From Kocuria varians (GTDB lineage: Bacteria > Actinomycetota > Actinomycetes > Actinomycetales > Micrococcaceae), in contig NZ_BJNW01000013.1 in NCBI RefSeq assembly GCF_006539885.1, positions 1 to 64,000 of the forward strand: a stretch of DNA of 64,000 bases, written 5' to 3'. Made by a program: the position numbers and the translations under genes. Numbering within the stretch: the stretch's first letter is position 1; every line of letters starts with the position of its first letter. Under the pieces are notes generated by a model, which did no database searches, was not told where the DNA came from, and worked only from the letters and a program-made list of their open reading frames with translations. Shown here one piece after another: positions 2,771 through 60,622 of the stretch.

Positions 2771-2818
2771 GACGACGACGCCGCCCGCCCACGCGAGGGG
2801 GCGGGCGGCGTCGTCGTC
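2771..2818. terminator. 20-bp perfect inverted repeat between hpaD and hpaH
   Basis: The arms 2771-2790 and 2799-2818 are perfect complements with an 8-base loop. Each arm opens with GACGACGACGCCGC, the motif dispersed through this window. There is no T-tract. Because hpaD, hpaH and hpaI appear to share a transcript, the hairpin may attenuate transcription or mark an mRNA processing or stability point rather than terminate fully. Confidence 0.75.
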
Positions 2819-12239: not shown

Positions 12240-12468
12240 GGTGCCTCCGTGGGTGAGCGGGCTACCGTTGCGGGCCGTTGACTGCCTCCACACTATCCCC
12301 CTGAGTGCGGAGCCCCGGGAGGGAACGCCGGTTCCCGGAGGCGGGTCCCGAGGGCGCCACCCGTCGGGTGTCCCTCACGACGACGCCGACGGCGCCGCCG
12401 GCCTGGGTGCGCGGAACCCGTCCCGCTCAGCACACCGCGGGCCCACGTCCGTCACGACGCCGGGACCT

Positions 12469-13482
12469 TCAGAGCCCTCGGAAGAGATCGACGACGTTGG
12501 CCGCCGTGGTCTCGCGGCACCCCGCGAAACCGGTGCCGGCCCACAGGTTCAGCCCCTCGGGGTCGTCCGCGGAAGCCGCCCGCAGCGGTGCGGTCATGTA
12601 GTGGACCTGCGGGTAGCCGGGCACCTGCGCGGCGGCGAGGCGGTCCGTGAAGCGGTTGCGCAGGGCGCGGGCCGCCCGCCCGGAGAACACCCGGGTCACC
12701 ACGGTCTCCTCGTGCTCGCCGCCCAGCAGCGCGCGGCGGTGGGCGGGCTTGGTTCCCGCCTCCTGCGCGGTGAGGAACAGGGTCCCCACCTGCACGGCGT
12801 CCGCGCCGCGCTCGAGGAGGTCAGCGGCGTCGTCGCGCCCGGACACGCCACCCGCCGCGATCAGCGGCAGCGCGGTCTGCTCGCGCACGCTGCTCACGAG
12901 GTCCGCGGTGGAGATCTCCTGCGGGGTCTTCGCCTGGCCGTGGGTGGCGCGGTGGCCGCCCGCCTCCGCGCCCTGCACGACGACCGCGTCCGGGTCGAGG
13001 GCCAGCGCCGCGGTGAACTCCGCCTCGTCCGTGGCGTTGAGGATCACGGCGGTGCCCACGGACCGCAACCGGGCGACGTCGTCCACGGACGGCAGGCCGA
13101 ACGTGAAGGAGACCGCCGGGACCGGCTGGGCCACCAGGTGGTCGAGCTTGGCGGCGTAGTGGTCGTCCGTGTACTCGCCCGGCCGCGGCGCGGGCACGCC
13201 CAGCTCTGCGGCCAGGGGCGCGAGGGCGTCCGCGAAAGCGTCCAGCTGCGCGGGGTCCGAGGGGTCCTGCTCGGGCGTGAAGAGGTTCACGCCGAAGCGG
13301 TCCGTGCGCTCGGCGACCTTGCGGATCTCCGCCGCCATGGCCTCGGTGGTCTTGTAGCCGGCGGCCAGCATGCCCAGTCCCCCGGCTCGGGCGACGGCGA
13401 CCGCGAGCGCCGCCGTGGACGGCCCACCCGCCATGGGGGCCTGGACCACGGGGACCTGCAGCGCGCTCAGGGGATTGGACAT
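12469..13482 (-). CDS. nitronate monooxygenase (2-nitropropane dioxygenase family)
   Basis: This 337-residue FMN-dependent TIM barrel begins QVPVVQAPMAGGPSTAALA, the family N-terminal FMN loop. It contains VVQGAEAGGHR with the catalytic histidine and the phosphate-binding PLIAAGGVSGRDD and GADAVQVGTLFLT. It oxidises propionate-3-nitronate or alkyl nitronates. The DDAA following GGVSGR is encoded by a copy of the dispersed GACGACGCCGC motif. It is divergent from the NUDIX gene with only 23 bp between starts. Confidence 0.92.
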   Translation of the reverse strand: MSNPLSALQVPVVQAPMAGGPSTAALAVAVARAGGLGMLAAGYKTTEAMAAEIRKVAERTDRFGVNLFTPEQDPSDPAQLDAFADALAPLAAELGVPAPRPGEYTDDHYAAKLDHLVAQPVPAVSFTFGLPSVDDVARLRSVGTAVILNATDEAEFTAALALDPDAVVVQGAEAGGHRATHGQAKTPQEISTADLVSSVREQTALPLIAAGGVSGRDDAADLLERGADAVQVGTLFLTAQEAGTKPAHRRALLGGEHEETVVTRVFSGRAARALRNRFTDRLAAAQVPGYPQVHYMTAPLRAASADDPEGLNLWAGTGFAGCRETTAANVVDLFRGL

Positions 13483-13505: not shown

Positions 13506-14024
13506 GTGTTCGACTCCCATGATGCGCGCCGCGCCCCCGTTCCGTCCTCCCCCGTGACCCACCCGGTGACTTCGGAGGTCGACGACGCCGCCCCCTCCCG
13601 TCCCGTCATCAAGGTCACCGGGGTGGTGCTGCGCCGCGCGGCGGACGGCCACGCACTGACCGTGCGCAAGCGCGGGACCGGGATGTTCATGTTCCCCGGT
13701 GGCAAGCCGGAGGCGGACGAGACCCCGCGCGAGGCCGGGATCCGGGAGGTCCGCGAGGAGCTGGGGCTCGAGCTGCCCCCGGAGGACCTCGTGCTCGTGG
13801 GCGAGTGGCACACGGACGCCGCCAACGAGCCCGGACACGCGCTGCACAGCCACGTGTTCCTCAGCACCGTGCCGCTCACGGAGACGCCCATACCCGCCGC
13901 GGAGATCGAGGAGCTGCGCTGGCAGCCGCTCGACGGCGTGGAGGGCGTTGAGGACCTCGCCCCGCTCTCCCGCTGGTACGCGCTGCCGGTGGTGCGGAGC
14001 GCGGGGAGTTGGCCCCGCCGCTAG
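13506..14024 (+). CDS. NUDIX hydrolase
   Basis: The 172-residue protein has a complete NUDIX box, G(x5)E(x7)REVREELG, at about residues 66-88, with the metal-binding REVREE core. It should hydrolyse a nucleoside diphosphate linked to another moiety; the substrate is unknown. The first about 35 residues are a disordered leader that contains DDAA from a GACGACGCCGC motif copy. The GTG at 13506 lacks an obvious ribosome binding site, so the mRNA may be leaderless or the start may lie at a later GTG before the NUDIX fold. It is nearly end-to-end with the next gene (3' gap 2 bp). Confidence 0.88.
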   Translation: MFDSHDARRAPVPSSPVTHPVTSEVDDAAPSRPVIKVTGVVLRRAADGHALTVRKRGTGMFMFPGGKPEADETPREAGIREVREELGLELPPEDLVLVGEWHTDAANEPGHALHSHVFLSTVPLTETPIPAAEIEELRWQPLDGVEGVEDLAPLSRWYALPVVRSAGSWPRR

Positions 14025-14574: not shown

Positions 14575-14610
14575 CGCGGCGTCGTCATCCCTTGGGCCGA
14601 CGACGCCGCG
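14575..14610. terminator. inverted pair of the GACGACGCCGC motif
   Basis: Perfect 12-bp arms lie at 14575-14586 and 14599-14610 with a 12-base loop. Each arm is one copy of the dispersed motif plus a flanking base. It lies just beyond the 3' end of the DHA2 transporter pseudogene and could terminate its transcript. There is no T-tract. Confidence 0.65.
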
Positions 14611-14621
14611 CACGGCCCCGC

Positions 14622-16289: not shown

Positions 16290-16436
16290 GTTCCAGCCTC
16301 CGCAGATGGTCGGTGCCCCGCCCGTTCCGCGGCTCGGTGGCCGACGGCGCCGGGACGAGTTGTCCTGGCGGGAAGACTATCCGCTCGGCGCGTGCCGGTG
16401 CGCATGCATGGACCGTGCGTCCCGGCGGCGCGCGGT

Positions 16437-17321
16437 TCAGGTGCGGCGCATCACCGTGGCCGCGTCCACGGCGACGTCGCCGGTGCCGGGCGCCGCGGCG
16501 TCGTCGTCCGTGAGGCCAGGGAGGGTGACGTCCCAGAAGGGCGTGGGGCCCGTGATGCCGAGCTCCTCGCGGGGCACGGCGTGCGTGTCCTGGCTGCGGT
16601 CGTCCACCGGGGCGCGCAGCAGGGTGGCCGTGGCCCAGCCGTGGGTGAGGAGGTGGTGGTCGCTGTCCGGCTCCTCGGGCCCGGTCTCCGCGCTGTAGGT
16701 CACCGCGATGTGCTGTTCGTCCCCGCGCCCGATCTGCGCCTGGACGGCACCGAAACTCGCCAGGTGCGCGGGCTTCAGACCGCGCAGCCGCGCGGGGGCC
16801 ACGTCCGGGACGTTGAGGTTGAGGATCCACTCGTCGAACGGGCGCTCCTCCCAGTGCTCCAGCGCGAACCGGGTGACCAGCTGCGCGGTCTCCCAGTGCT
16901 GCGGGGCGCCGGAGGTGATGGACACCGCGATGCCCGGGATCCCGTGGGACGCCGCCGTCAGCACGGCTCCCACCGTGCCCGAGTGCAGCGTGGCCTTGCC
17001 CGTGTTCGCCCCCAGGTTCACCCCGGAGAGCACCATGTCCGGGCGCTGGCCGAACGCCCCGTACGAGGCCAGGAAGGCGATCAGCGCCGGGGCGGCCTTC
17101 ACGCCCACGCACTCCACGCCGTGGGGCATGCCGGGCGGAGCGGCCTCCACGAGCGCGATCCGGCCGTCGATCTCCTCGCCGGACAGGGATGCGCTCGCAC
17201 CGGAGTACTCCTCCGCGGGCGCGGCCACCTTCACGGTGTGGCCGCGCTCCAGTGCCGCCCGGGCGAGGACCGCGAGGCCCGGGGACGAGATGCCATCGTC
17301 ATTGGTGACCAGGATGTGCAT
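16437..17321 (-). CDS. surE: 5'/3'-nucleotidase SurE
   Basis: This 294-residue SurE starts MHILVTNDDGISSPG, the family's acidic metal-binding N-terminus. It continues with APAEEYSGASASLS (Ser/Asn pocket) and SGVNLGANTG with the metal-ligand Asn. SurE dephosphorylates nucleoside monophosphates in stress and stationary phase. The C-terminus contains TDDDAAAPG, encoded by a copy of the 14-bp dispersed motif in a nonconserved tail. An ATG at 17330 is an alternative start. Neither has a clear ribosome binding site, and I prefer 17321 because the family begins there. Confidence 0.9.
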   Translation of the reverse strand: MHILVTNDDGISSPGLAVLARAALERGHTVKVAAPAEEYSGASASLSGEEIDGRIALVEAAPPGMPHGVECVGVKAAPALIAFLASYGAFGQRPDMVLSGVNLGANTGKATLHSGTVGAVLTAASHGIPGIAVSITSGAPQHWETAQLVTRFALEHWEERPFDEWILNLNVPDVAPARLRGLKPAHLASFGAVQAQIGRGDEQHIAVTYSAETGPEEPDSDHHLLTHGWATATLLRAPVDDRSQDTHAVPREELGITGPTPFWDVTLPGLTDDDAAAPGTGDVAVDAATVMRRT

Positions 17322-19331: not shown

Positions 19332-19435
19332 CGTGGCCTCCTGGGGTCTTCCGGTCGTCGAGGACACCCCCAATTTTAGAAACGACGACGCCGCGCACCC
19401 CACCCTTTCGGGCCCGGCACCCGCGTACTGTGCGC

Positions 19436-21192: not shown

Positions 21193-21855
21193 CTAGCCCC
21201 GTGCCCGCAGCTCGCGGGCGGTGGCACCGAGCCGGGTGACTGCGGTGACCGCGCAGCCCGCGACGACCACCACGAGCGTGAGCCACAGGACGATCCCCGG
21301 GTGCCAGCCCAGCACCGGCTCGAACAGGCTGACCAGGATGCCGCCCATGAGCACCCACATGCGCCGCTGCTTGGGCAGGATCCCACCGAACTGCTGGGCG
21401 CAGCCCAGGCTCACGCCGAGCGTGCGCACGTAGGCGGTGAACACCGCGAGGGTCCCGGCGAGCCAGCCGAGCGTCACGCCCCCGGCCACGGACGACGCCG
21501 CCCAGCCGGCTCCCACGAACAGGGCCAGGTCCGAGAGCCGGTCCGGTACCTCGTTGTACAGGTCCCCGGTGGGCGTCCGCAGCCCGCCCTCGACCGCGAG
21601 CATCCCGTCCAGCATGTTGCACAGCAGACGCAGCGGGATGCAGACCGCGGCGAGCAGCAGGGCGACGGTGCGCAGGGCGCCGTCCGCGTGGCCCGCGACC
21701 ACCAGGCACCCGGCGCCCACCAGTGCCGTGACCACGGACGCCACCGACACGTGGTTCGGGCGGATCCCGGTGCGCTGCAGCGCCGAGGCCGCGGCGGTCG
21801 CCCACCCGGCGCTGCGCTGCGGAATGGGTCGGCGCAAGGGGCCGGTGGGGGTCAT
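21193..21855 (-). CDS. CDP-alcohol phosphatidyltransferase
   Basis: The product has 220 residues with about six membrane segments. The catalytic region NMLDGMLAVE...GDLYNEVPDRLSD contains the DG-x2-A and D-x3-D elements of the CDP-OH-P-transferase motif; the usual Ala-Arg is Ala-Val here, as in a YnbA-like subgroup. It should transfer phosphatidyl groups from CDP-diacylglycerol to an alcohol that I cannot identify. The ATG at 21855 follows GAGGAG. The next gene downstream, cdsA, provides its likely substrate. Confidence 0.85.
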   Translation of the reverse strand: MTPTGPLRRPIPQRSAGWATAAASALQRTGIRPNHVSVASVVTALVGAGCLVVAGHADGALRTVALLLAAVCIPLRLLCNMLDGMLAVEGGLRTPTGDLYNEVPDRLSDLALFVGAGWAASSVAGGVTLGWLAGTLAVFTAYVRTLGVSLGCAQQFGGILPKQRRMWVLMGGILVSLFEPVLGWHPGIVLWLTLVVVVAGCAVTAVTRLGATARELRARG

Positions 21856-22797: not shown

Positions 22798-24294
22798 TCA
22801 CGCCAGGTAGCGCGCCCGCACCTCCTCCGGCAGCATCCCGCCGCCGGTCAGCCAGGCCATGTGGGTCGCGGTCGGCGGCACGGTTCGCGCGGTCGCGGTC
22901 GTCTCGGCTGCGCCCGTCTCCGGCGCGACGCCCGCGGACCCGCCCGTCCCCGGGTCGGCGGCGTGCCCCGGAAGGCCGCGCGCGGCGTCGTCGTCCCCCG
23001 TGCCAGCGCCCGCCACCCGGCGGACCGACTCGAGGGCGGCCGCCGCGGACGGCTCCACGACGATGCCCTCGGCCGCGTTCAGGGCCCTGACCTGCGCGAG
23101 CATCTGCTCGTCGGAGGCGGTGACGTACCCGTCCACCAGGCCCTGCACGGCGCGGCCCACGAAGCCGGAGGGCCGCCCCACCGCGAGGCCGTCCGCGACG
23201 GTGCGGGTGGTGAGGCCCAGCTCGGCGACCGAGACGGTGTCGTGCCGGCCCGTGCGGACTCCCAGCAGCATGCACGGCGCCTGGGTGGGCTCCACGAACA
23301 CGCAGTGCACGGCGTTGCCGAACTCACGCTTGAGGCCGTAGGCCACGCCGCCCGGGGCGCCGCCGATCCCGCACGGCAGGTGCACGCACAGGGGGTGCTC
23401 CTCGTCCACGGCGATCCCCTGCTCGCGCAGCTGCCGGGCCACGCGGGCGCCCGCCACGGCGTAGCCGGCGAAGAGGCTCAGGGAGTGCTCGTCGTCCACG
23501 AAGTGCACGGTGTCGTCCGCCTCGGCGGCGGCCCGCCCGGCCGCCACGGCCTCCGTGTAGTCGGTGCTGTGCTCCACGACCTCCACGCCGCGCGAGCGCA
23601 GGAGGTCCTTCTTCCACTGCTGCGCGTGCGTGGACATGTGCACGGTGGCCTGCAGCCCCAGGGCTGCGGAGATGATGCCGATCGACATCCCCAGGTTGCC
23701 GGTGGAGCCCACCACCACGCGGTGCGCGGCCATGAGCTCGCGGAACGGGGCCGTGGCGAACACGGAGTGGTCGACGACGCCGCCCGCGGGCAGCGGTGCA
23801 TCGGCACCGGTCTGCGCGGGGAGCGGAGCGTCGGGAACGGCCAGCAGCCCGTGCGCCACGGCGAGGGACTCCGCGTACTGCAGCACCTCGTGCACCCCGC
23901 CGCGCGCCTTCACGGAACCGCTCACGGGCAGGATGTCGTCGCGCTTGAGCAGCACCCGCCCGGCCTCCGGGGCCTCGGCCGCACGCCAGGCGGACGCCTC
24001 CTGCACGGGCGACTCGATGAGCCCACCCGCCGCGGCGGTGTCCGGGAACGTGGCGGCGATCCAGGGGCGGAATCGTTCCAGGCGCGCGGCGGCATTGGCC
24101 ACGATGGCCGGGTCCACGCCGGAGTCCTCCAACCCACGGGAACTGTCCCCGGCCGCGGGGTTCCACCAGGTGAGGGGCTCCTCGCGGGCCAGCCGGTCGA
24201 CGAGCGGGTCCGCGAGCAGGGCGGCGTCGCCCGCGGGCACGGCGTCGGCTGCCGGCGTGGGGCGGGCGGACGGTTCGGCTCCGTGAGTGGTCAT
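22798..24294 (-). CDS. dsdA: D-serine ammonia-lyase (DsdA)
   Basis: This 498-residue fold-type II PLP enzyme has the Schiff-base lysine in SGSVKARGGVHE, the phosphate/carboxylate loop GSTGNLGMSIG and the glycine loop LPCGIGGAPGG. It deaminates D-serine to pyruvate and ammonia. Near the C-terminus, about residues 416-470 form a Gly/Ala/Thr-rich insertion before the conserved THMAWLTGGGMLP ending. It begins GTGDDDAARG, encoded by a motif copy at 22982-22995. A second motif copy (23773-23783) is read antisense as GGVVDH. It starts 46 bp after qsuB and may be cotranscribed. Confidence 0.92.
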   Translation of the reverse strand: MTTHGAEPSARPTPAADAVPAGDAALLADPLVDRLAREEPLTWWNPAAGDSSRGLEDSGVDPAIVANAAARLERFRPWIAATFPDTAAAGGLIESPVQEASAWRAAEAPEAGRVLLKRDDILPVSGSVKARGGVHEVLQYAESLAVAHGLLAVPDAPLPAQTGADAPLPAGGVVDHSVFATAPFRELMAAHRVVVGSTGNLGMSIGIISAALGLQATVHMSTHAQQWKKDLLRSRGVEVVEHSTDYTEAVAAGRAAAEADDTVHFVDDEHSLSLFAGYAVAGARVARQLREQGIAVDEEHPLCVHLPCGIGGAPGGVAYGLKREFGNAVHCVFVEPTQAPCMLLGVRTGRHDTVSVAELGLTTRTVADGLAVGRPSGFVGRAVQGLVDGYVTASDEQMLAQVRALNAAEGIVVEPSAAAALESVRRVAGAGTGDDDAARGLPGHAADPGTGGSAGVAPETGAAETTATARTVPPTATHMAWLTGGGMLPEEVRARYLA

Positions 24295-24340: not shown

Positions 24341-26203
24341 CTACCCCTTCCGCGCGAACTCCCGGTACTGCGACGCCAGCCGCACCGGCGCGTTGGGGGC
24401 GCCATATCCCTCGTAGCCGTTGCGGCGCTCCACGACCTCCACGAACACCTCGCCGAGGGTGGGGGTGTAGAAGTGCAGGAACTCGCCGGCGTCGTCGCGG
24501 TCGTAGAGCAGGCCGTTGGACTCGAGCAGGGCCACGAAGTCCGGGTCGAGGTCGAAGCGGGCCACGAGGTCCTCGTAGTAGTTGGTGGGGACGGGCAGGA
24601 AGGCGAGGCCGCGGCGTCGTGCCCGCTGGGCCACGGCGACGATGTCCGAGCACGCGAGCGCGATGTGCTCCGGGTACGCCGCCCCCGTGAACGCCCCCTG
24701 CTCCGCGGCCATGGGCGCCACGTTGAGCGGGATGCGCACCACCCCGCCGGCGGAGCGCATGACCTGCGAGCGCACGAGCCCGGAGGGTCCCGCCACGTCC
24801 TGGGAGGGTGCGGGGTGCAGGTCGAGCAGGGAGGTCAGGAACAGGACGGCCTCGTCGTAGTGCTGCCACGGCTGCGCGAGGTTCACGTGGTCCACGCCGG
24901 TGAACAGGGACTCGGGGGCGCCCTCGCGGGGGTCCGCGCCGAACTCGACGAGCCACGGCGGCACGCCGCGGTCCCCCGTGGGGCCGAAGAAGATCTCCGT
25001 GCCGTCCGGGGCGACGACGCCGTGCAGCACGGTCTCGTCCGGCAGCTGCGCGCGGTCCACGGTCTGGGCGAGCAGGCGCTGCGCTCGGTAGGCGGCGACG
25101 TCCGGGTCCGTGACCTGGACGCCGAGCGCCGCGAGCCGCGTGGGCTGCGCGGAGTCCCGCGAGTCCTCGGAGACGATGATCCGCACCGGCCCCTGGGCCC
25201 ACACCTGCACCTGGTCCTTGGAGCGGTGGTGCCCGGCGAGCGCGAACCCGAGCTGGTGCAGCATGCGCGTCACGTGCCCGAGCTCGCGGGTGCGCAGCTC
25301 CAGGAAGTCCCACGCCCGCGGCGCCTGGGGCGCGGGCAGGTCCGTGAGCACCAGCGGCGGCCGGTCCGGATCCCCTCCGGCCTCGCGCACGGCGTCCGCG
25401 GTCTGGTCCTCGAGCCAGCGCAGGGAGCGCAGCCCGTCCACGGCGGTGCGGTGCACGTCCGCCTGGCGGAACGAGTCGTTGAAGATCTCCAGGGAGACGG
25501 GACCCGCGTAGCCGGTCTCGTGCAGCCGCCCGAGCAGGTCCACGAGGTCGAAGTCCCCCTCCCCCGGGAACACCCGGTGGTGGCGGGACCACGAGAGCAC
25601 GTCCTGCGTGAGCAGGGGCGCGTCCGCGAGCTGCACGAAGAAGATCTTGCGGGGGTCGCACGCCTCCACGCCCTCCACGGTGTCCCCGCGGGAGAAGATG
25701 TGGAAGCTGTCCAGGCACGTGCCCACCCGGGGGTGGTCCGCGAGCTCCACGATGCGGTGGGCGTGGCGCCACGTGTTCACGTGCGCGCCCCACGCGAGCG
25801 CCTCGTACGCGAGGTCGATCCCGTACTCGTCCGCCACGTCACCGGCCGCGCGCAGCTGCTCGGCAATGGCGGCGTCGTCCTCCAGCACACCCGTGGCCAC
25901 GTTCGAGCACACCAGCAGCACGGAGGTGCCCAGCCGGTTCATGAGTTCGCACTTGGCGCGCAGCCGCCGCAGCGAGTCCGGGAACGCCTCCGGGGCCACC
26001 TCCACGCCGTCGCGGAAGGGCTGGTACATGTCCAGGGACAGCCCCAGCTCGGCGGCGAGTTCGCGCAGCTGCTCCGGGGAGGACGGCGAGACCACGAGGT
26101 CCGGCTCGAAGACCTCCACGCCGTCGAAACCCGCGGCCGCGGCGGCGCGCATCTTCTCCTCCAGCGTCCCGGACAGGCACACCGTGGCGATGCTGGTCCT
26201 CAC
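24341..26203 (-). CDS. qsuB: 3-dehydroshikimate dehydratase, TIM barrel fused to HPPD-like domain (QsuB type)
   Basis: The product has 620 residues. Residues about 1-275 form a sugar-phosphate-isomerase/AP-endonuclease-type barrel with metal ligands in YEALAW, CLDSFHIF, HHRVFPGEGDFD and VSLEIFND. Residues about 300-615 are a two-part vicinal-oxygen-chelate region related to 4-hydroxyphenylpyruvate dioxygenase, with GVDHVNLAQ, PEHIALACSD and EVFVEVVER. This is the QsuB architecture of Corynebacterium glutamicum, which dehydrates 3-dehydroshikimate to protocatechuate. The GTG at 26203 overlaps the qsuD stop as GTGA. A motif copy encodes EDDAA at 25869-25879. Confidence 0.92.
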   Translation of the reverse strand: MRTSIATVCLSGTLEEKMRAAAAAGFDGVEVFEPDLVVSPSSPEQLRELAAELGLSLDMYQPFRDGVEVAPEAFPDSLRRLRAKCELMNRLGTSVLLVCSNVATGVLEDDAAIAEQLRAAGDVADEYGIDLAYEALAWGAHVNTWRHAHRIVELADHPRVGTCLDSFHIFSRGDTVEGVEACDPRKIFFVQLADAPLLTQDVLSWSRHHRVFPGEGDFDLVDLLGRLHETGYAGPVSLEIFNDSFRQADVHRTAVDGLRSLRWLEDQTADAVREAGGDPDRPPLVLTDLPAPQAPRAWDFLELRTRELGHVTRMLHQLGFALAGHHRSKDQVQVWAQGPVRIIVSEDSRDSAQPTRLAALGVQVTDPDVAAYRAQRLLAQTVDRAQLPDETVLHGVVAPDGTEIFFGPTGDRGVPPWLVEFGADPREGAPESLFTGVDHVNLAQPWQHYDEAVLFLTSLLDLHPAPSQDVAGPSGLVRSQVMRSAGGVVRIPLNVAPMAAEQGAFTGAAYPEHIALACSDIVAVAQRARRRGLAFLPVPTNYYEDLVARFDLDPDFVALLESNGLLYDRDDAGEFLHFYTPTLGEVFVEVVERRNGYEGYGAPNAPVRLASQYREFARKG

Positions 26204-27195: not shown

Positions 27196-28158
27196 TCAGC
27201 GGCGCTGCGGCAGCACCGCCGCGAGCCGGTCCGCGGCCTGCCGGAGCAGCGGCACGTGGTCCACCAGCGCCTGCGGGTCGCAGCGGTGGACGGGGGCGGC
27301 CAGGGCGAGGGCGGCGCGCACGGGAGCCCCCGGGGAGACCACGGGCACGGCCAGGGCGGCCATGGCGTCGTCGTGCTCCTGGTCCTGCAGGGCCCAGCCC
27401 TGCTCCCGGACCCGCTCCAGCTCCGTGCGCAGGGCGTCCCGGTCCGTGAGCGAGCGCTCCGTGCGGGCGGGCAGGTCCAGGGTCTCGACCAGGTGCTCGC
27501 GAAGCTGCGGCTCCGAGAACGCGAGCAGCACCCGGCCCAGCGCGGAGGTGTGCAGCTCCCCGCGGTCCCCCGGATCCGTGGTGGTGCGGTGGTGCGGGCC
27601 GTCCACGGTGTGCACGGTGAGGAACCGGTCCCCGTCCAGCACGGCCAGTAGGCAGCTCTCGCCGGTGGCCTCCACGACCTCGCGCATCACCGGCAGGGCG
27701 GTACCGGCCCAGCCGCGCGCCGAGGCCACCTTCTGCCCCATCGCGAAGAGCAGCACGCCCAGCCGGTAGCGCTTCGTCTCCGGCTCGAACTCCGCGTACC
27801 CGGCGTCCACGAGCGTGGCCAGCAGCCGGTAGCACGTGCTGAACGCGAGCCCCGAGTCCGCGACGAGCTGCCCGGCGGTCGCCCCCTCCGGGTGGTCCCC
27901 GAGCAGCTGCAGCAGCGCGAGACCCTTGCGGACCGTGCCGGAGCGGTCGCCGGAGCGCGGTGTGCCGCGGGTTGTGGGGGACGACGACGCCGCGGCGCTG
28001 GTGGGCGCGGCGGGCTGAGTCGTCGCTGTGCCGGGGACGGGTCCCGGTACCGCGCCGCTCGGCGTCGTGATGTCCGACGTCGTGCCGCTCGGCGTTGTGC
28101 TGGCGGCGGCCGCGCCGTCCGAGGGCACGGCAGACCCCGGCGCGGGTGGGGTGTTCAC
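27196..28158 (-). CDS. IclR-family transcriptional regulator of the shikimate module
   Basis: The product has 320 residues. A 75-residue Pro/Thr/Ala-rich, low-complexity leader (containing AAASSS from an antisense motif copy at 27980-27993) precedes a winged helix-turn-helix (KGLALLQLLGDHPEGATAGQLVADSGLAFSTCYRLL). An IclR effector domain follows, with the TSALGRVLLA signature. It is the first gene of the minus-strand qsuD-qsuB unit and is divergent from the shikimate-type transporter, so shikimate or quinate is a likely ligand. I chose the GTG at 28158, preceded by AGGAG. Confidence 0.88.
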   Translation of the reverse strand: MNTPPAPGSAVPSDGAAAASTTPSGTTSDITTPSGAVPGPVPGTATTQPAAPTSAAASSSPTTRGTPRSGDRSGTVRKGLALLQLLGDHPEGATAGQLVADSGLAFSTCYRLLATLVDAGYAEFEPETKRYRLGVLLFAMGQKVASARGWAGTALPVMREVVEATGESCLLAVLDGDRFLTVHTVDGPHHRTTTDPGDRGELHTSALGRVLLAFSEPQLREHLVETLDLPARTERSLTDRDALRTELERVREQGWALQDQEHDDAMAALAVPVVSPGAPVRAALALAAPVHRCDPQALVDHVPLLRQAADRLAAVLPQRR

Positions 28159-29766: not shown

Positions 29767-29790
29767 TCCCGGTTCGTGCCCCTTCCTCCC

Positions 29791-29841
29791 ACGACGACGC
29801 CGCGGGGCCCGGGTTCTCCCCGGTCACCGCGGCGTCGTCGT
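29791..29841. terminator. inverted motif pair between the convergent transporter and rbsD
   Basis: Perfect 15-bp arms (29791-29805 and 29827-29841) flank a 21-base loop. Each arm contains GACGACGCCGC. It sits in the only gap between two convergent transcripts, the position of a bidirectional terminator. There is no T-tract. Confidence 0.75.
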
Positions 29842-29860
29842 TCCATGCCGTCGGGCCGGC

Positions 29861-30244: not shown

Positions 30245-31245
30245 GCCCGGCCCTGCCCGTCCAGCTCCGGCAGGGCGGCGTCGCGCTGCGGGTAGGAGGA
30301 CTGCGTGCCGGCGGTCAGCACGGCGCCGGCGGCGAAGCGTGCCGCGTACGACGCCGCGGTGTCCAGGTCCGCGCCCCGGGCCAGCCGAGCGGCGGCCGCG
30401 CCCGCGAAGGCGTCCCCGGCCCCGGTGGTGTCCACGGCCCGCACCCGGGCAGCCGGGGTGGAGCGCACGCCGGCGGCATCCGCCACGAGCGCCCCGCGGG
30501 AACCCAGGGTCATGATGACGCTCGGCACCCCGGCCGCGAGGAGGGCGGCCACGATGCCCTCCTCGTCCAGCCCCTCCGGCTCGCCGCCGAGCAGCCGCAG
30601 CGACTCCGCACCCTCGTGCTCGTTGACGATCAGCGGGTCCGCACTCGTGAGCACGTGGGCGGGCACCTCGATCACGGGGGCCAGGTTCACGACCACCCGG
30701 CCCGGAGCGCGCTCGGCAGCGCGGGCCACGGCGGCCGTGGGGATCTCCCCCTGCAGCACGACGACGCCCTCCAGACCACCGGCGTCCGCCACCCGGTCCA
30801 CGTCCTCGGCGGTCACGGAACCGTTGGCACCGGGGACCACCACGATCGAGTTCTCCGCGGAGTCCTCCACCCAGATCAGGGCGGTCCCGGTGGGCACTCC
30901 CTCCCGGGTGAGGACGGCGGAGAGGTCCACGCCGTCCGACCGGAGGTGGGCGAGGGCGGCGGCCGCGGCGTCGTCGTCCCCCACCGCCCCCACGAAACGG
31001 ACGGAAGCCCCGGCGCGCGAGGCCGCGAGCGCCTGGTTCGCGCCCTTGCCGCCCGGCGAGGACACGAGGGACGTACCCAGCAGTGTCTCGCCGCGGCCGG
31101 GCAGGCGCGGCACGGTGGCGGTGACGTCCAGGTTCGTGGACCCCACGACCGTGACGTCCACGGGCTGCGACGGGGCTCCCGCCCGGGTCTCGCCGTGGGA
31201 GGGAACCTCGTTGTGGGGCGAGGTCTCACTGCGGGAAGGGTGCAT
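30238..31245 (-). CDS. rbsK: ribokinase RbsK
   Basis: The 335-residue PfkB-fold kinase has GSTNLDVT (N-terminal substrate-binding Asn-Leu-Asp), SSPGGKGANQALAASRAG and the catalytic DTTGAGDAFAGA. It phosphorylates ribose to ribose-5-phosphate. About 28 extra residues precede the fold. GDDDAAAAAL after FVGAVG is encoded by the 14-bp motif at 30965-30978. Ribokinases normally have only GDD(A/P)FG here, so the motif is accommodated at a natural Asp-rich site. The start overlaps the rbsB stop by one base (TGATG). Confidence 0.95.
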   Translation of the reverse strand: MHPSRSETSPHNEVPSHGETRAGAPSQPVDVTVVGSTNLDVTATVPRLPGRGETLLGTSLVSSPGGKGANQALAASRAGASVRFVGAVGDDDAAAAALAHLRSDGVDLSAVLTREGVPTGTALIWVEDSAENSIVVVPGANGSVTAEDVDRVADAGGLEGVVVLQGEIPTAAVARAAERAPGRVVVNLAPVIEVPAHVLTSADPLIVNEHEGAESLRLLGGEPEGLDEEGIVAALLAAGVPSVIMTLGSRGALVADAAGVRSTPAARVRAVDTTGAGDAFAGAAAARLARGADLDTAASYAARFAAGAVLTAGTQSSYPQRDAALPELDGQGRAC

Positions 31246-33181: not shown

Positions 33182-34731
33182 GCTCGTTCTCTCGTCTCTT
33201 CTTCCAGGGTCTGGACCGCGCGCTCGGCGCTCGCGTCGCTGTGCGTGTTGGACACCGCCAGGGCCATCACGGAGTCCTCCGTGGCCTCCTCGGCGGAGAG
33301 CTCCCCGGTGATCCGCCCCTCGGACATCACCAGGATGCGGTCGGACATCCCGAGCACCTCCGGCAGCTCGGAGGAAACCAGCAGGACCGCTCCGCCGGCG
33401 TCCGTGACGTCCCGGACCAGTTCGTAGATCTCGACCTTCGCGCCCACGTCCACGCCGCGGGTGGGCTCGTCCAGCAGCAGCACGGTGGAGCCGGCCACCA
33501 CCCAGCGGGCGAAGACCACCTTCTGCTGGTTGCCGCCGGAGAGGTCCCGCACGTGCTGGTCCACGTCCCGCATGCGCACGCGCAGCTTCTGCGCCACGTC
33601 CTGCGCACGACGCCGCTGCCCCGCCCGGTCCACCAGCCCCGCCTTCGCGGTGCTGCCCAGGGTGGCGTAGCCGATGTTCTGCGTGATGGGGGCGTCCAGC
33701 ACGAGCCCCTGGTGCTTGCGGTCCTCCGGCACGTGGCCGATGCCCGCGCGCACCGCGGCGCCGACGTCCCCGACCGGAAGCTCACTGCCGGCGACGCTCA
33801 CGGCCCCCGTGCGCTTCTCCGCACCGGCGATCGCGCGGATCAGTTCCGTGCGGCCCGCTCCCACCAGACCGGCGAGGCCCACGACCTCACCGCGGTGCAC
33901 GGAGAAGCTCGCGTCCCGGACCAGGCCACCCGTGGAGACGCCCTGCACGCGCAGCAGCTCCTCGGCGTCGTCGCCCCGGCGGCGCGGGTGACGCGGGAAC
34001 TGCTCACTGAGCTCGCGACCCACCATCAGGCGGATCAGTTCGTCCTCGGGGGTGTCCGCGGGGACCTCCGCCACCACGCGGCCGTCCCGCAGCACCACCA
34101 CGGTGTCCCCCACCCGGGCGATCTCGTCCAGGTGGTGGCTGATGAAGACCATGCCCACACCGCGGGCCTTCAGCTCGTCGATCACGGCGAACAGCGCGGC
34201 CGACTCCGCGCCGGTCAGGGCCGCGGTGGGCTCGTCCAGGATGAGGATCCGCGCGTCCAGGGACAGCGCCTTCGCCACCTCCACGAGCTGCTGGCGGGCC
34301 ACGCCCATGTCCCCGAGGTGCGCGGCCGGATCCAGGTCCATGCCGATCCTGGCCATCGCCTCCCGGGCGATCCGCGCCAGTGCCTCGCGGTCCACGACCC
34401 CGAAGCGGCGCGGCTCCCGGCCCAGCGAGATGTTCTGCGCCACCGACATGGTCGGCACCAGGTTCAATTCCTGGTGGATGGTCACGATGCCCAGCCGCTC
34501 CGCCGCCTTCACGTCCGGCAGCTGCACCGTCTCACCGGCCACCCGGATCTCACCGGCGTCCGGCTGGTAGATGCCGGACATCATCTTGATCAGGGTGGAC
34601 TTCCCCGCACCGTTCTCACCCAGCAGGACGGTCACCTGCCCCGGGTGGACGTCCACACTGACGTCCTCGATCACGCGGACCGGACCGAACGCCTTGCAGA
34701 CGTTCACCAGCCGCAGCAGCGGTTCACTCAC
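33178..34731 (-). CDS. rbsA: ribose ABC transporter ATPase RbsA (two ABC domains)
   Basis: The 517-residue protein has tandem ATPase domains. The first has GENGAGKSTLIKMMSG (Walker A) and ILDEPTAAL (Walker B). The second has the degenerate GLVGAGRTELIRAIAG P-loop, the signature LSGGNQQKVVFARW and LLLDEPTRGVDVGAK. This asymmetry is normal for RbsA/MglA proteins. It powers ribose import through RbsC. The GTG start overlaps the rbsR stop as GTGA. Confidence 0.95.
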   Translation of the reverse strand: MSEPLLRLVNVCKAFGPVRVIEDVSVDVHPGQVTVLLGENGAGKSTLIKMMSGIYQPDAGEIRVAGETVQLPDVKAAERLGIVTIHQELNLVPTMSVAQNISLGREPRRFGVVDREALARIAREAMARIGMDLDPAAHLGDMGVARQQLVEVAKALSLDARILILDEPTAALTGAESAALFAVIDELKARGVGMVFISHHLDEIARVGDTVVVLRDGRVVAEVPADTPEDELIRLMVGRELSEQFPRHPRRRGDDAEELLRVQGVSTGGLVRDASFSVHRGEVVGLAGLVGAGRTELIRAIAGAEKRTGAVSVAGSELPVGDVGAAVRAGIGHVPEDRKHQGLVLDAPITQNIGYATLGSTAKAGLVDRAGQRRRAQDVAQKLRVRMRDVDQHVRDLSGGNQQKVVFARWVVAGSTVLLLDEPTRGVDVGAKVEIYELVRDVTDAGGAVLLVSSELPEVLGMSDRILVMSEGRITGELSAEEATEDSVMALAVSNTHSDASAERAVQTLEEETRERA

Positions 34732-35868: not shown

Positions 35869-36039
35869 CATCGTGTCCACAGCATGCCACGGAAATGTGA
35901 TCCACGACAACCTCTGCTGTGCGCTGTGACATGGAGTGGCTGAGAGGCAACGCCGTTGTTTGGACGTCAGCGCAAGCCGCAGCCAACGACCGGCAGGGCA
36001 CCCGGGGTGCCGCGGCGTCGTCGTCCCTTCCTCTGCCGC

Positions 36040-37499: not shown

Positions 37500-39104
37500 A
37501 TGACTGAACAGACAAACCCCGCCCGCCACATCGTCGTCGTGGGCGCGGGAACCGCCGGATCAATCGTCGCGGGGCGCGCCGCCGCCGCGGGCCACCGGGT
37601 GACGCTGCTCGAGGCCGGCAGCCAGGACACCAACCCCGTCATCACACGGCTCGCCCGCCTGGGAGAGCTGTGGCACGGCCCGGAGGACTGGGACTACTTC
37701 ACGGTCCCGCAGGAGCACGCGTCTGGCCGCGTCATCCACTGGCCGCGCGGACGGGTCCTCGGCGGCTCTCACGCGCTGAACGCCGCCATCTGGGTGCGCG
37801 GCAACCCGCTGGACTACGACGACTGGGCCGCGGCGGGCTGCAATGGCTGGGCCTGGAGCGACGTCGCCCCCGTCTTCGAGGCGCTGGAGGCCTACGACGG
37901 CCCCACCACGGACGACGCCGCCGCGGCGCCCCGCGGCACCGACGGTCCCGTTCCCGTGGTGGGCACGTACGAGCTCAGCCCCGTCTTCGACGCGATCATC
38001 GCCGCGTCCGAGGCGGTGGGCGTGCCCTTCAACGAGGACTACAACGGGGCCACCCAGGACGGTGTGTCCCAGGAGCAGCTCACCGTCCGGGACGGCAAGC
38101 GCGTGACCACGTACATGGCGTACGCGAAGCCGTGGGTGGACAAGGGGGCGATCGAGGTCCACACCGGCGCGGTCGTGGAGCGGCTGGTCATCCGGGACGG
38201 GCGCGTGGTCGGCGTCCAGCTTCACGCGGGGACGACCTCCGAGGTGGAGGGCATTTCCGGCGAGCCGCCCACGGCTGGTGAGTCCTCGGACGGCGAGGTG
38301 ATCGAGGCGGACGAGGTGGCCCTGTGCGCTGGGGCCCTGGACAGCCCCAAGATCCTCATGCGCTCCGGCATCGGCCCGGCCGAGCACCTGCGGGAGGTGG
38401 GGATCGAGCCGGTCGTGGACCTGCCCGGCGTAGGGGAGAACCTGCACGACCACCTGCTGGTGCCGGTGATCGCTGAGGCCACCGCGAGGACCATCGCGCA
38501 CGCCGAGGACGAGATCGCGGTGACCCAGACCCACCTGTTCTGGCGCTCCACGAAGGACCAGGACCGCCCGGACACCCAGCCCATCCACTTCTGCGTGCCC
38601 ATGTACGACGACTGGATGGAGGGCCCGGGCAACGCCTTCACCCTGCACTCCGGCCTGGTGCGCCCGTACTCGCGCGGCCGGATCACCCTGACCGGGCCCA
38701 GCAGCACGGACCCCGCCCGGTACGACCCGAACATCTTCGCCGACCCTCGGGACCGCGAGGCCCTGCGGGCGTCCTTCCGCCAGGCACGCGCGATGGTCGC
38801 GACGCCGCCCCTCGCGGATGAGTGGGGTGCGCGGGAGATCTACCCCGGGCCGGAGGTCACGGACGAGGCGTCCGAGGACGCGTACATGGACCGCGCCGTG
38901 ACGACGTACCACCACCAGGTGGGCACGTGCCGCATGGGAACGGACGAGCTGGCCGTGGTGGATTCCGCCACCCTGGAGGTTCACGGTGTGGCGGGCGTAC
39001 GGGTGGTGGACGCCTCGATCATGCCGTCCATTCCCACCGGCAACACGAACGCCCCGTCCGCGCTGATCGGCGAGAAGGGCGCGCGGATGCTCCTGGGCGA
39101 GTGA
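37500..39104 (+). CDS. GMC-family FAD oxidoreductase (choline dehydrogenase-like)
   Basis: The 534-residue flavoprotein has the N-terminal dinucleotide fold HIVVVGAGTAGSIVAGRAA, the FAD-covering RGRVLGGSHALNAAIWVRG, LCAGALDSPKILMRSGIGP (GMC signature 2) and the catalytic histidine region TYHHQVGTCRMG, with IPTGNTNAPSALIGEKGA at the end. It oxidises an alcohol; the substrate is not determinable. TTDDAAAAPRG at about residue 136 is encoded by a motif copy (37911-37921) in a variable loop. It is divergent from the MFS gene and followed by a strong terminator. Confidence 0.92.
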   Translation: MTEQTNPARHIVVVGAGTAGSIVAGRAAAAGHRVTLLEAGSQDTNPVITRLARLGELWHGPEDWDYFTVPQEHASGRVIHWPRGRVLGGSHALNAAIWVRGNPLDYDDWAAAGCNGWAWSDVAPVFEALEAYDGPTTDDAAAAPRGTDGPVPVVGTYELSPVFDAIIAASEAVGVPFNEDYNGATQDGVSQEQLTVRDGKRVTTYMAYAKPWVDKGAIEVHTGAVVERLVIRDGRVVGVQLHAGTTSEVEGISGEPPTAGESSDGEVIEADEVALCAGALDSPKILMRSGIGPAEHLREVGIEPVVDLPGVGENLHDHLLVPVIAEATARTIAHAEDEIAVTQTHLFWRSTKDQDRPDTQPIHFCVPMYDDWMEGPGNAFTLHSGLVRPYSRGRITLTGPSSTDPARYDPNIFADPRDREALRASFRQARAMVATPPLADEWGAREIYPGPEVTDEASEDAYMDRAVTTYHHQVGTCRMGTDELAVVDSATLEVHGVAGVRVVDASIMPSIPTGNTNAPSALIGEKGARMLLGE

Positions 39105-41859: not shown

Positions 41860-43266
41860 TCAACGGGAGATGACCTTGCTGGCTGCCACGGACTTCAACC
41901 CCTCGACGCCGAACTCCAGGCCGAAGCCGGACTTCTTGATGCCGCCGAAGGGGATGCGGGGATCCACGGTGCCGTGCTTGTTGATCCACACGGTGCCGGC
42001 CTCGATCCGCTGGGCCACGGCCACGGCCCTCTCCGTGTCGGAGCTCCACACGGAGGCCCCGAGCCCCACGTCCAGGCCGTTGGCCATCGCGATGGCGTCC
42101 TCCACGTCCGCGTACTTCACGATGGGCAGTGCGGGGCCGAACTGCTCCTGCGTGACCAGGGGGTTGTCGTTGGGCAGGTCCGCCACCAGCGTGGTGGGGT
42201 AGAAGTAGCCGGGCTGGTCAGGATCCGGGTCCCCGCCCATGAGCACGCGGCCACCACCCTGCTTGGCATCCTCCACGAGACCCGCCACGATGTCGTACTG
42301 CTGCTTGTTCTGCAGGGGACCGAGCACGTTCTGCTCCTCGCGTCCGTTGCCCATGGGCATCTGCTGCGCCACCGCCACGAGGGCCTCGCAGACGTCGTCG
42401 TACACGTCCTCGTGCACGTAGAGGCGCTTGAGCGCAGCACAGGTCTGGCCCGTGTTGATGAAAGCGCCCCAGAAGAGGCCCTCCGCAACGGCCGTGGCGT
42501 CCACGTCCGGCAGAACCACCCCGGCGTCGTTGCCGCCGAGCTCCAGCGTGAGACGCGCCAGACCGTCCGCAGCCGAACGCATGATGGCCTGACCGGTGCT
42601 GGTGGAACCCGTGAACATGATCTTGTCCACGCCCTCGTGGGTGGACAGCGCCTTGCCCACCTCTCCGCCGCCGGGCACCACGTGCAGCACGTCCGCGGGC
42701 AGCGCCTGGTTGAGGACGTGCACGAGCCCGAGTACGGACAGCGGGGTGTACTCGGAGGGCTTGACCACCACGGTGTTGCCCATGCGCAGGGAGGACGCCA
42801 CCTGCCACACCGTGATCATCATGGGCCAGTTCCAGGGCCCGATGGCTCCCACCACGCCCAGCGGTACGTACTCCATCTCGGCGTAGCCGGACTCGTCGTC
42901 CACGAGCACCTCCGGCTCCAGCGGGAAGTCCGCGCTCGCGCGCAGCCACGCCGAGCAGCCACCCACCTCGAACGCCGCGTTCGGGCCGTTCTTCACGGGC
43001 TTGCCCTGCTCGCGGGACAGCAGCTCGGCGAGCGCCTCAGCGTTGCCCTCGACGGCGTCCGCGGCCTTGTGCAGGTACTCGGAGCGCTTCTCGTGGCCCA
43101 GCCGCGCCCACTCGGGCTGGGCGGCGCGGGCGGCGGCCACGGCGTCGTCGAGCTCGGCGGCGGTGGACTCGTGGACGGTGCCCACCAGCTCACCGGTGGC
43201 GGGGTCCAGGATCTCGCGGCCGGACGGATCCGTGACGGCGGAGAGCAGGTCTTGGTAGGTGGACAC
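41860..43266 (-). CDS. aldehyde dehydrogenase family protein
   Basis: This 468-residue NAD(P)-dependent aldehyde dehydrogenase has GPWNWPMMITVWQ, FTGSTSTGQAIM, LELGGNDAGVVL with the general-base glutamate, and NTGQTCAALKRLYV with the catalytic cysteine. The C-terminus, IPFGGIKKSGFGLEFG, is also typical. The sequence LELGGNDA is shared with several bacterial dehydrogenases of uncertain substrate. I chose the GTG at 43266, preceded by AAGGAG; the longer frame is not needed. It lies 50 bp upstream of the PheC-like gene, so the two may be cotranscribed. Confidence 0.92.
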   Translation of the reverse strand: MSTYQDLLSAVTDPSGREILDPATGELVGTVHESTAAELDDAVAAARAAQPEWARLGHEKRSEYLHKAADAVEGNAEALAELLSREQGKPVKNGPNAAFEVGGCSAWLRASADFPLEPEVLVDDESGYAEMEYVPLGVVGAIGPWNWPMMITVWQVASSLRMGNTVVVKPSEYTPLSVLGLVHVLNQALPADVLHVVPGGGEVGKALSTHEGVDKIMFTGSTSTGQAIMRSAADGLARLTLELGGNDAGVVLPDVDATAVAEGLFWGAFINTGQTCAALKRLYVHEDVYDDVCEALVAVAQQMPMGNGREEQNVLGPLQNKQQYDIVAGLVEDAKQGGGRVLMGGDPDPDQPGYFYPTTLVADLPNDNPLVTQEQFGPALPIVKYADVEDAIAMANGLDVGLGASVWSSDTERAVAVAQRIEAGTVWINKHGTVDPRIPFGGIKKSGFGLEFGVEGLKSVAASKVISR

Positions 43267-43961: not shown

Positions 43962-43968
43962 ATTCTCG

Positions 43969-44023
43969 ACGACGACGCCGCCGCCGCGCCAGCTTCCTGG
44001 GACCGGCGCTGGGGCGTCGTCGT
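43969..44023. terminator. motif-based hairpin between convergent genes
   Basis: ACGACGACGCC (43969-43979) pairs with GGCGTCGTCGT (44013-44023), giving 11 bp. The left arm is part of a full GACGACGACGCCGC copy (43968-43981). The loop is GC-rich and can form further stems. It lies in the short gap between two convergent transcripts. Confidence 0.65.
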
Positions 44024-44035
44024 GCTCCTGCGCTG

Positions 44036-45646: not shown

Positions 45647-47305
45647 CACGGCGTCCGCGCGGTGGACGATCCGCCCGTCGCACACCGTGAGCTCCGCTGC
45701 GATGTCCTTGAGCTCGGAGGGGTCCGCGTCGAACGGGTTGCGGTCCAGGAGGACGAGGTCCCCCAGGAACCCCTCCTCGATGCGGCCCAGCCGGTCCTCG
45801 TCGAAGGACGCCTTCGCGGCCTCCACGGTGTAGGCGTCCAGCGCCTCGGCCACCGTGATGTTCTGGACGGTGTCGGCCACCTGCCCGGACACCGTGGTGC
45901 GGGTGACGCACGCGGAGATCCCGAACCACGGGTTGGCGGTGGTCACGGGGAAGTCCGAGTTGCTGGGCGCGAGGATCCCGCGGTCCAGGAACGTGCGCAT
46001 GGGGTACGTGCGGGCCATGCGCTCCGGGCCGAGGTTCCGGCAGTAGGAGTCCCCGAGCTCGTGGACGAACGCCGTGGAGCACGCCGCGACGATCCGGTTC
46101 TCCACCAGCCGCCGCAGGTCCTCCTCGGTGGGCAGCGCGCAGTGCTCCACCCGGTGCCGCCGGGAGGTGACGAGGGAGCGGTAGGCGGCCTCGGCGTCGT
46201 CGTCCTCCGCGGCGACTTCCCGGCCCGCCCCCTCGATGAGGTCCAGGGCCTGCGCCACGGCGCGCTCGCCGATGCCGTGGATGGCCAGCCGCAGCCCGTT
46301 GCGCAGCGCCTGGGCCGCCATGGGGGCGATGTCCGGCGTGTCGTAGTAGAGGATGCCGCACGAGTCACCGCCCTCGAACGGCTCCGCGACCGCCGCGGTC
46401 TGCCCTCCCACGGAGCCGTCCAGGATGAACTTCATGCCCTGGATCCGCACCATGTCGTCCCCGAGCCCGCTGCGGATGCCGGTGCCGATCACCTCGTCGT
46501 AGCTGCCGTGGAAGTCGCCCAGCTTCAGTGCGAAGTACCACGGACGGAACCTCGTGGTCAGTTCCCCGGCCTCCTCCAGCCGCAGGTACGTGCCCATCTC
46601 CAGCGGCCCGGTGCTCATGTCGTGCACCGTGGTCAGACCCCACGCCGCGAAGTCCCGCTGCGCCACGCGCATCCCGTCCAGCAGCTCGCGCGGGCCGCTG
46701 TCCGACAGGTCCGCCAGGGACATCGCCGTCTCCTGCAGCAGACCCGTGGGCTCGCCGGTGCTGTCCCGCACGATCCGCCCACCGGAGGGGTCCGGGGTGT
46801 CCGCCGTGACACCCATCCGCTCCAGTGCCGCGGAGTTCACCAGGGCCATGTGGGCGCACGTGCGCTTGAGGTACACGGGGTGGTCCGGGGCGGCCTCGTC
46901 CAGGTCCGCGCGGGTGGGCCCGGGGCCGTCCATGCGGTGCTCGTCGTAGCCCCAGCCGACCACCCACTCCCCCGGCTCGGCGCCCTCCGCCGCCTCACGG
47001 ATGGCGGTGACGACGTCGCCCGCGCGCGGCGTCGTGGCCGGGCGGCAGTCCGCGTTCAGCGCCAGCCGCGCGTAGAGGCCCGGGTGGCCGTGGGTCTCGA
47101 TGAGCCCGGGCACGAGGTACCGCCCGCCCGCGTCGACGACCGGCACGGAGGGGGCCGTGCGGCGTCGTGCCTCCTGCGGGTCCCCCACGAACGTGATCAC
47201 GCCGTCCTCGACCACGACCCCCTGGGGCTCGCGCTCGAAGCGCCCCTCGGAACGGTGCACGACGGCGTCGAGCACCGTGACGCTGCGGGTGGCTGGCTGC
47301 TCCAT
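45644..47305 (-). CDS. YtcJ-like metal-dependent amidohydrolase
   Basis: The 553-residue amidohydrolase superfamily protein has the HxH metal motif in ETHGHPG, a downstream EHCALP, IHGIGERAV with a metal histidine, and the late aspartate in APSNSDFPV. The length and domain order are those of the YtcJ/Amidohydro_3 branch, which hydrolyses amide or imide bonds of unknown compounds. AAEDDDAEAAY is encoded by a near-match to the dispersed motif. CAGGAGA precedes the ATG at 47305. The adjacent MHS transporter on the same strand may import its substrate. Confidence 0.88.
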   Translation of the reverse strand: MEQPATRSVTVLDAVVHRSEGRFEREPQGVVVEDGVITFVGDPQEARRRTAPSVPVVDAGGRYLVPGLIETHGHPGLYARLALNADCRPATTPRAGDVVTAIREAAEGAEPGEWVVGWGYDEHRMDGPGPTRADLDEAAPDHPVYLKRTCAHMALVNSAALERMGVTADTPDPSGGRIVRDSTGEPTGLLQETAMSLADLSDSGPRELLDGMRVAQRDFAAWGLTTVHDMSTGPLEMGTYLRLEEAGELTTRFRPWYFALKLGDFHGSYDEVIGTGIRSGLGDDMVRIQGMKFILDGSVGGQTAAVAEPFEGGDSCGILYYDTPDIAPMAAQALRNGLRLAIHGIGERAVAQALDLIEGAGREVAAEDDDAEAAYRSLVTSRRHRVEHCALPTEEDLRRLVENRIVAACSTAFVHELGDSYCRNLGPERMARTYPMRTFLDRGILAPSNSDFPVTTANPWFGISACVTRTTVSGQVADTVQNITVAEALDAYTVEAAKASFDEDRLGRIEEGFLGDLVLLDRNPFDADPSELKDIAAELTVCDGRIVHRADAV

Positions 47306-47474
47306 GGGGGTCTCCTGGGGGTTGGTGGAATGCGGGCCGGGCCCCGTCCGGCGGCTCGGGACCCGGGGGGACATCCGAGTCCGCGGCTCGGTGCGGCGGG
47401 CCGGTCCGTCGGTCAGCCCTGTGCTTCGGTTCTGCGGCGCGGCCCGACGGCCTGCGGGCCGTGCGGCGGCGTCG

Positions 47475-51981: not shown

Positions 51982-52157
51982 ACCGCCAGTATCCCACCGG
52001 CACCGGGGCCGACGGCGTGCGGTCGGGCCGGGTGCGCGGCGGCCGGGCGGGCGCGGGAGGCCGACCGGCCCGCGGGGTCAGGCCGACGCGCGGGCCCGGG
52101 CCCCACGAGCGAGCGGAACGGGCCGCGCGAACGGGGCGGACGGCGTCGTCGTCCCCG

Positions 52158-60438: not shown

Positions 60439-60622
60439 GGGATCACTGTCTCACGACGACGCCGCGCGGCCCGCGGGCGCAGCCCCTGACGGGTTCACAA
60501 CCCCGCAGGACAGCGACTGCCTCCCTACAGGTGTATGCCCACCCCCAAGGGTGCTGACAGTATGGGAGAACCACGTCGCACTCCATGACCGCGGCGTGCG
60601 TCAGCTTCGTAGAAGGATCGTC

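Follow-up and report, generated by a model that had tools for sequence, protein, structure and literature searches.

A DNA-uptake-sequence-like word of Kocuria and the putative co-option of its inverted pairs as 3'-end hairpins lacking a U-tract

The genome of Kocuria varians carries a short, precise word that we read, with moderate confidence, as a repeat of Kocuria resembling the DNA uptake sequences (DUS), paired copies of which have been co-opted as terminators or 3'-end elements without a U-tract. That the paired copies are 3'-end hairpins is, judging from their folding and position, well supported; transcripts presumably end at them, and we infer that the word itself has a role in uptake.

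Results

The word in the genome

The 12-mer CGACGACGCCGC is present in 302 copies on one strand and 304 on the other across the whole genome (2.84 Mb, 71% GC), as against 4 and 5 copies of the reversed control. In the window, by which we mean the whole stretch of 64,000 nucleotides analysed here, GACGACGCCGC occurs 25 times where a third-order Markov model expects 0.5. The consensus of the copies is approximately (G)ACGACGACGCCGC, and no conservation beyond about 14 bp was detected around them in 864 kb sampled from the genome. In the same sample the density of the 11-mer is 1.2/kb in intergenic and 0.22/kb in genic DNA, whereas altered 11-mers mostly reach 0-0.04/kb, with the exception of GACGACGGCGC (0.15/kb intergenic); between genes the word is about 100 times commoner than most altered 11-mers, and it is enriched within genes too. 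The exact 12-mer has 108 intergenic copies and any single substitution of it 0 to 24. The 292 copies in the 864 kb are divided into 129 intergenic and 163 genic ones, the latter occurring in all frames and enriched in antisense orientation as well.

Four paired hairpins in the window

A sequence-only reading of the window had proposed that four inverted pairs of the word form hairpins. All four are present (Table 1), and RNA folding of each strand gives structures far more stable than dinucleotide shuffles, to which the z-scores refer. On the plus and minus strands, respectively, the energies are -45.8/-45.5 kcal/mol for 29785-29847 (z -7.5/-5.8), -52.5/-49.4 kcal/mol for 2765-2824 (z -6.6), -27.3/-31.7 kcal/mol for 14570-14615 (z -3.6/-4.0) and -37.6/-39.1 kcal/mol for 43963-44029 (z -3.0/-3.1). 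By gene calls from a simple codon-usage caller, which may have misassigned some regions as intergenic or divergent, the four hairpins lie 7-25 nt beyond stop codons. Between the hairpin at 29791 and the stops of its neighbours there are 25 nt on the side of an MFS transporter gene, 29422-29766(+), and 20 nt on that of the D-ribose pyranase (RbsD) gene, 29861-30244(-). At 14575 the hairpin follows the stop of an MFS gene, 14622-15323(-), by 12 nt, this gene being convergent with an upstream NUDIX gene on the plus strand, and at 43969 it is found 8 nt past the stop of 43461-43961(+) and 13 nt past that of an AraC-type regulator gene, 44036-44944(-). The fourth, at 2771, is separated by 7 nt from the stop codon of a 3,4-dihydroxyphenylacetate 2,3-dioxygenase-like gene, 2824-3966(-). 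Three hairpins, and not two as had been claimed, are thus placed between convergent genes, while the remaining one does stand beyond a single gene. The pair at 14575 has the order GCGGCGTCGTC...GACGACGCCGC (hereafter -+); the other three have the order GACGACGCCGC...GCGGCGTCGTC (+-). An Rfam search of the window gave no match.

Table 1. Single and inverted-pair copies of the word in the window, with their strand and surroundings.
Feature	Coordinates	Strand	Context
Inverted pair, +-, 15-bp perfect outer arms and inner stem	29791..29841	.	bidirectional terminator-like hairpin
Inverted pair, +-, 20-bp arms	2771..2818	.	tandem context, past single gene
Inverted pair, -+, 12-bp arms	14575..14610	.	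between convergent genes
Inverted pair, +-, 11-bp outer arms, one mismatch in one arm	43969..44023	.	between convergent genes
Single copy (13-mer), no hairpin	36012..36024	-	15 nt past stop of 36040-37275(-); fold z +0.8
Single copy, no motif hairpin	47466..47476	-	overlaps stop codon of 47475-48845(-); fold z -0.2
Single copy (GACGACGCCG core), no hairpin above shuffles	52141..52152	-	5 nt past stop of 52158-52856(-); fold z -0.3
Single intergenic copy (10-mer core)	12378..12388	+	
Single intergenic copy	19382..19394	+	divergent (5') region, upstream of genes
Single intergenic copy	60453..60465	+	divergent (5') region, upstream of genes
In-gene copy, antisense (10-mer core)	6673..6682	+	
In-gene copy, sense	12825..12834	-	
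In-gene copy, sense	13581..13591	+	
In-gene copy, sense (13-mer)	16495..16507	-	
In-gene copy, antisense	21491..21501	+	
In-gene copy, sense (13-mer)	22982..22994	-	
In-gene copy, antisense	23773..23783	+	
In-gene copy, sense (10-mer core)	24487..24496	-	
In-gene copy, antisense (10-mer core)	25013..25022	+	
In-gene copy, sense	25869..25879	-	
In-gene copy, antisense (13-mer)	27981..27993	+	
In-gene copy, sense (13-mer)	30965..30977	-	
In-gene copy, sense (10-mer core)	33963..33972	-	
In-gene copy, sense	37911..37921	+	
In-gene copy, sense (10-mer core)	43140..43149	-	
In-gene copy, sense (10-mer core)	46192..46201	-	
In-gene copy, sense (12-mer)	49537..49548	-	
In-gene copy, antisense (13-mer)	50234..50246	+	
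In-gene copy, sense (10-mer core)	53657..53666	+	
In-gene copy, antisense	56035..56045	-	
In-gene copy, sense (13-mer)	59706..59718	+	

Single copies had also been pointed out just past gene 3' ends. Their position near the ends is confirmed, but a role in termination is not: the copies at 36012, 47466 and 52141 fold no better than shuffles and other single copies lie upstream of genes, so that they give no evidence for termination; further singles are found inside genes.

Inverted pairs, orientation and the hairpin tail

A clear excess of inverted pairs was found beyond the four of the window. The 864-kb sample holds 18 intergenic +- and 4 -+ pairs, compared with 1.36 and 1.27 when the intergenic copies were placed at random (500 runs, maximum 6), and the whole genome has 37 +- pairs as against none for the reversed control. 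In the whole genome +- pairs outnumber -+ ones 37:11 (one-sided p=1e-4), and in 12 motif-rich Kocuria genomes together 192:54. By region, the sample has 10 pairs in 20.7 kb of convergent, 8 in 55.6 kb of tandem and 4 in 29.7 kb of divergent intergenic DNA, that is 0.5/kb in convergent versus 0.13-0.14/kb in tandem and divergent regions, and seven of the eight tandem pairs are closer to the upstream stop than to the next start. Past convergent genes, the motif core is contained in 33 of 105 strong hairpins (a fold under -30 kcal/mol within at most 56 nt) versus 10 of 99 weak ones (p=2.5e-4), and in upstream regions in 4 of 116; it is present at 21% of convergent 3' ends.

None of the four hairpins in the window has a T-tract, as the sequence-only reading had noticed, and the same absence extends to the whole genome. 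In the 864-kb sample the 12 nt after the 3' arm contain 1.9 T, as against 1.7 in intergenic DNA in general, and the longest T run is 0-2; terminator-like sites with a T-rich tail are not in excess in the 28-45 kb interval. Of the features of a canonical intrinsic terminator, a GC-rich hairpin close behind the stop is found and the T-tract is absent. Is it then the arms rather than the tail that are selected, as had been suggested? The evidence supports this and extends it to the inner stem. The 37 +- pairs have 37 distinct inner stems, and the first six inner positions are paired in 78% of cases, a share that falls to 48% (at most 59%) if arms of different loci are combined. Given that the inner stems are all different and nevertheless complementary, the hairpin itself, and not only the word, is under selection.

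Orthologous sites and a variant word in related species

The word and its pairs characterise about a dozen Kocuria species, K. rhizophila among them. For one protein of the window the closest named species are K. tytonicola (96% identity) and K. tytonis (94%). About twelve Kocuria genomes carry roughly 240-600 copies of the 12-mer and the remaining ones 3-115, and the number of pairs goes with the number of copies. In K. tytonis and K. tytonicola both motif arms of the 2771 hairpin are retained, with an altered inner sequence and, in K. tytonicola, a longer insert between the arms; the motif-poor K. polaris has a different, motif-free hairpin at this site, and Micrococcus terreus one with the outer arms CCCGACGACGGCCG/CGGCCGTCGTCGGG. 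At the 29791 site, one relative (genome G025) keeps the hairpin with one exact motif arm and a partner that is altered but still pairs, and in two others (G009 and G012) the same transporter is followed by a hairpin that lacks the motif, with a -+ motif-like pair farther on. Motif-free hairpins likewise occupy orthologous 3' ends in K. polaris, Micrococcus and Citricoccus. Because orthologous 3' ends keep a hairpin though its inner sequence or motif varies, the hairpin is the general element and the word one way to build it, as expected for co-option. In the small set of 12 sites alignable with K. rhizophila, 3 of them identical, the motif sites are not detectably better conserved than their flanks.

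M. terreus has a variant word, CCCGACGACGGC, which occurs 30 times in 140 kb where 0.1 is expected; its extended form is TTCCCGACGACGGCC. CGACGACGGCCG is found in 97+89 copies on the two strands of the M. terreus genome compared with 10+8 in this Kocuria genome. No +- pairs of the M. terreus word were found in the 140-kb sample; weaker signals of variant words come from M. lacusdianchii and some Kocuria, and the Citricoccus sample yielded none. The two words have CGACGACG in common and differ in their 3' parts, so they look like dialects of one word, clearly so for Kocuria and M. terreus only.

Several motif hairpins have a common inner palindrome of the kind GGTG(A/C)CCTTTCG...CGAAAGG(T/G)CACC; examples in this genome are C3:5486, C6:61566 and C17:75740 (contig:position), and many occur in relatives G018, G002 and G023. 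Similar parts of it are seen in hairpins of M. terreus and other Micrococcaceae, and the shared palindrome is possibly a second conserved terminator module. In the motif-poor congener G004, about 21-23 copies of overlapping k-mers that read like GTGCTCCCCGCGCCTGCGGGGATGAGCC lie within 64 kb, possibly a CRISPR array.

Competence genes

The competence set of this genome comprises ComEC, a ComEA-like SLBB-HHH protein and two Tad loci (TadA-family ATPase, T2SSF and TadE-like genes). Naturally transformable M. luteus has ComEA, ComEC and two Tad clusters (PMC6370729), which is gene equipment of the same kind. ComEC is present in nearly all relatives, motif-poor ones included; competence genes therefore do not track the motif, and gene content is no proof of uptake. 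No prepilins of the ComP type (N_methyl, PF07963) were found in this genome or in the 22 congeners searched, and among the Kocuria genomes searched no pilin or competence gene tracks the motif; these searches gave no receptor candidate. A genus-wide search detected the Flp_Fap pilin (PF04964) in larger Kocuria genomes that are poor in the motif and in no others; the corresponding position in the Tad locus of this genome (L175:12023-12337) is taken by a small DUF4244 protein. We found no uptake sequence for Kocuria or Micrococcus in the open-access papers searched, where natural competence and Kocuria are mentioned together just in passing, and the studies of M. luteus transformation that were consulted on this point do not mention an uptake sequence.

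Discussion

The parallel that had been drawn with paired uptake sequences serving as terminators in Neisseria is fitting and extends to the orientation bias: of the inverted DUS pairs in N. meningitidis Z2491, 226 are +- and 5 -+ (PMC1852404). Like the Kocuria word, the neisserial DUS (GCCGTCTGAA) is short and precise, is repeated hundreds to thousands of times over the two strands, in genes and between them, and forms inverted pairs that are enriched between convergent genes. Neisseria has about 1,900 copies of its 10-mer DUS, and related species have related words, or dialects (PMC3630211). On the other hand, the Kocuria word is unrelated and GC-rich, has about 600 12-mer copies and belongs to a high-GC Gram-positive host. 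The +- bias of Neisseria is explained by the A/T tails of the extended word, whereas the Kocuria word has no such tails. The neisserial receptor is the type IVa minor pilin ComP; since no N_methyl prepilin was found in the Kocuria genomes searched, a different receptor would be needed, and we do not class the word as a neisserial DUS. In Pasteurellaceae, 17-29% of terminators make use of the uptake signal sequence (USS, AAGTGCGGT; PMC1852404), a proportion similar to that of Kocuria convergent 3' ends given above; the USS has a long AT-rich flanking consensus, whereas that of Kocuria stops after about 14 bp. Intrinsic terminators of Streptomyces are described as very stable long hairpins with few U's and with stem covariation (PMC12207403). 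In stability and paucity of U's they resemble the Kocuria hairpins, behind which T stays at background level, about 2 per 12 nt, but they are not known to carry a genome-wide stem word.

Is the word primarily a module of termination or of mRNA 3' ends in Micrococcaceae, an outer stem that RNA polymerase, an RNase or an RNA-binding protein would read best, with the genic copies as by-products? We regard this as rather unlikely, although it accounts for the enrichment between genes and past stops, for the pairs and their orientation bias, and for the complementary inner stems, and although the motif-free hairpins of K. polaris, Micrococcus and Citricoccus at corresponding sites indicate that the 3'-end hairpin is older than the word. 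More than half of the copies are genic, antisense ones among them, and altered words are many times rarer there; single copies make up most of the intergenic ones, and the three singles tested do not fold. Moreover, strong hairpins without the motif outnumber those with it at 3' ends (72 of 105); a terminator can thus do without the word.

Somewhat less probable still is a binding site of a chromosome-maintenance protein (Chi-like, FtsK-orienting or nucleoid-organising) that has been reused in hairpins. The high copy number, the precise 12-mer and the roughly random spacing of the copies (mean 2.4 kb, CV 0.96) would suit such a site. The two strands are, however, equally endowed, and K. rhizophila DC2201 has no replichore skew: with dnaA at base 1, the first 43% of its chromosome holds 100 of the 221 plus-strand copies (p=0.54, from the first 100 positions and the total), which speaks against Chi- or KOPS-like polarity, and we reject a polar motif of that type. 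The word is also rare in several congeners, and a variant takes its place in the sister genus.

We likewise reject, as very improbable, an origin of the copies from a small mobile element (a REP or MITE-like palindrome) with a preference for gene ends. The pairs whose middle folds into a hairpin at 3' ends do resemble REP elements, and some share an inner core across loci and species; yet the conserved sequence is confined to the short word, the inner stems of the 37 pairs are all distinct and many copies are single and genic. An artefact of composition at 71% GC, whether through GAC GAC GCC codons or slippage of ACG triplets, is hardly credible and was rejected, for although the commonest genic frame is the sense GAC-GAC-GCC (Asp-Asp-Ala, 91 of 163), the altered-word and antisense controls stand against it, the copy number of several congeners is about a tenth, and ACG runs (17 at four units, 1 at five) seldom exceed three units, which argues against slippage.

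The reading that we prefer, an uptake-sequence-like repeat with co-opted pairs, may be pictured as follows. A DNA-binding component of the competence machinery (a Tad-type pilus with ComEA/ComEC) would prefer DNA that carries the word, and transformation among relatives would spread and maintain copies on both strands, in and between genes. Two head-to-head copies that happen to lie just past a stop codon would provide a ready-made GC-rich hairpin, which selection may then retain and lengthen as a 3'-end element, that is, as a transcription terminator, a barrier at the mRNA 3' end or both; one hairpin would often serve two convergent genes. The hairpin would do the work instead of a U-tract, and the +- order would put spaced U's (GCGUCGUCGU, GUCGUCGU) in the 3' arm. 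We suggest that these may be a partial substitute for the U-tract in a high-GC genome.

To our knowledge uptake sequences are known only from Neisseriaceae and Pasteurellaceae, and we know of no actinobacterial one. We lean, if only slightly, towards a wider proposal, namely that Kocuria and M. terreus possess the first DNA uptake sequence system of the Actinomycetota, with a GC-rich word, recognition by some component of a Tad-pilus and ComEA competence apparatus, and species variants acting as transformation barriers, which would have evolved independently of Neisseriaceae and Pasteurellaceae and been independently co-opted as paired terminators without a U-tract. If the word guides uptake, it would be the first such signal reported in this bacterial branch. 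The repeated evolution of biased DNA uptake has rested on two cases, and a third, if true, would make convergence testable; it would offer a Gram-positive case with a different pilus and a handle on the receptor of Tad-based transformation, and it would predict which Kocuria and Micrococcus strains exchange DNA. The hairpins themselves are a natural set of strong structures without U-tracts, with constant outer and variable inner stems, for studying termination in high-GC bacteria.

Two transporter genes of the window appear split. The first, an MFS/sugar transporter gene that precedes the 29791 hairpin, is divided over two frames at about 29353, at a C run in GTTCCCCCTACC, by one extra or missing base that is either a homopolymer sequencing error or a recent frameshift. 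As the same transporter is in a single frame in five Kocuria relatives, the convergent arrangement at this hairpin stands. A second MFS gene, 14622-17112, seems likewise to be in two frames, with MFS_1 positions 224-347 in 14622-15323 and 60-255 in the frame of 14803-17112, which suggests another frameshift.
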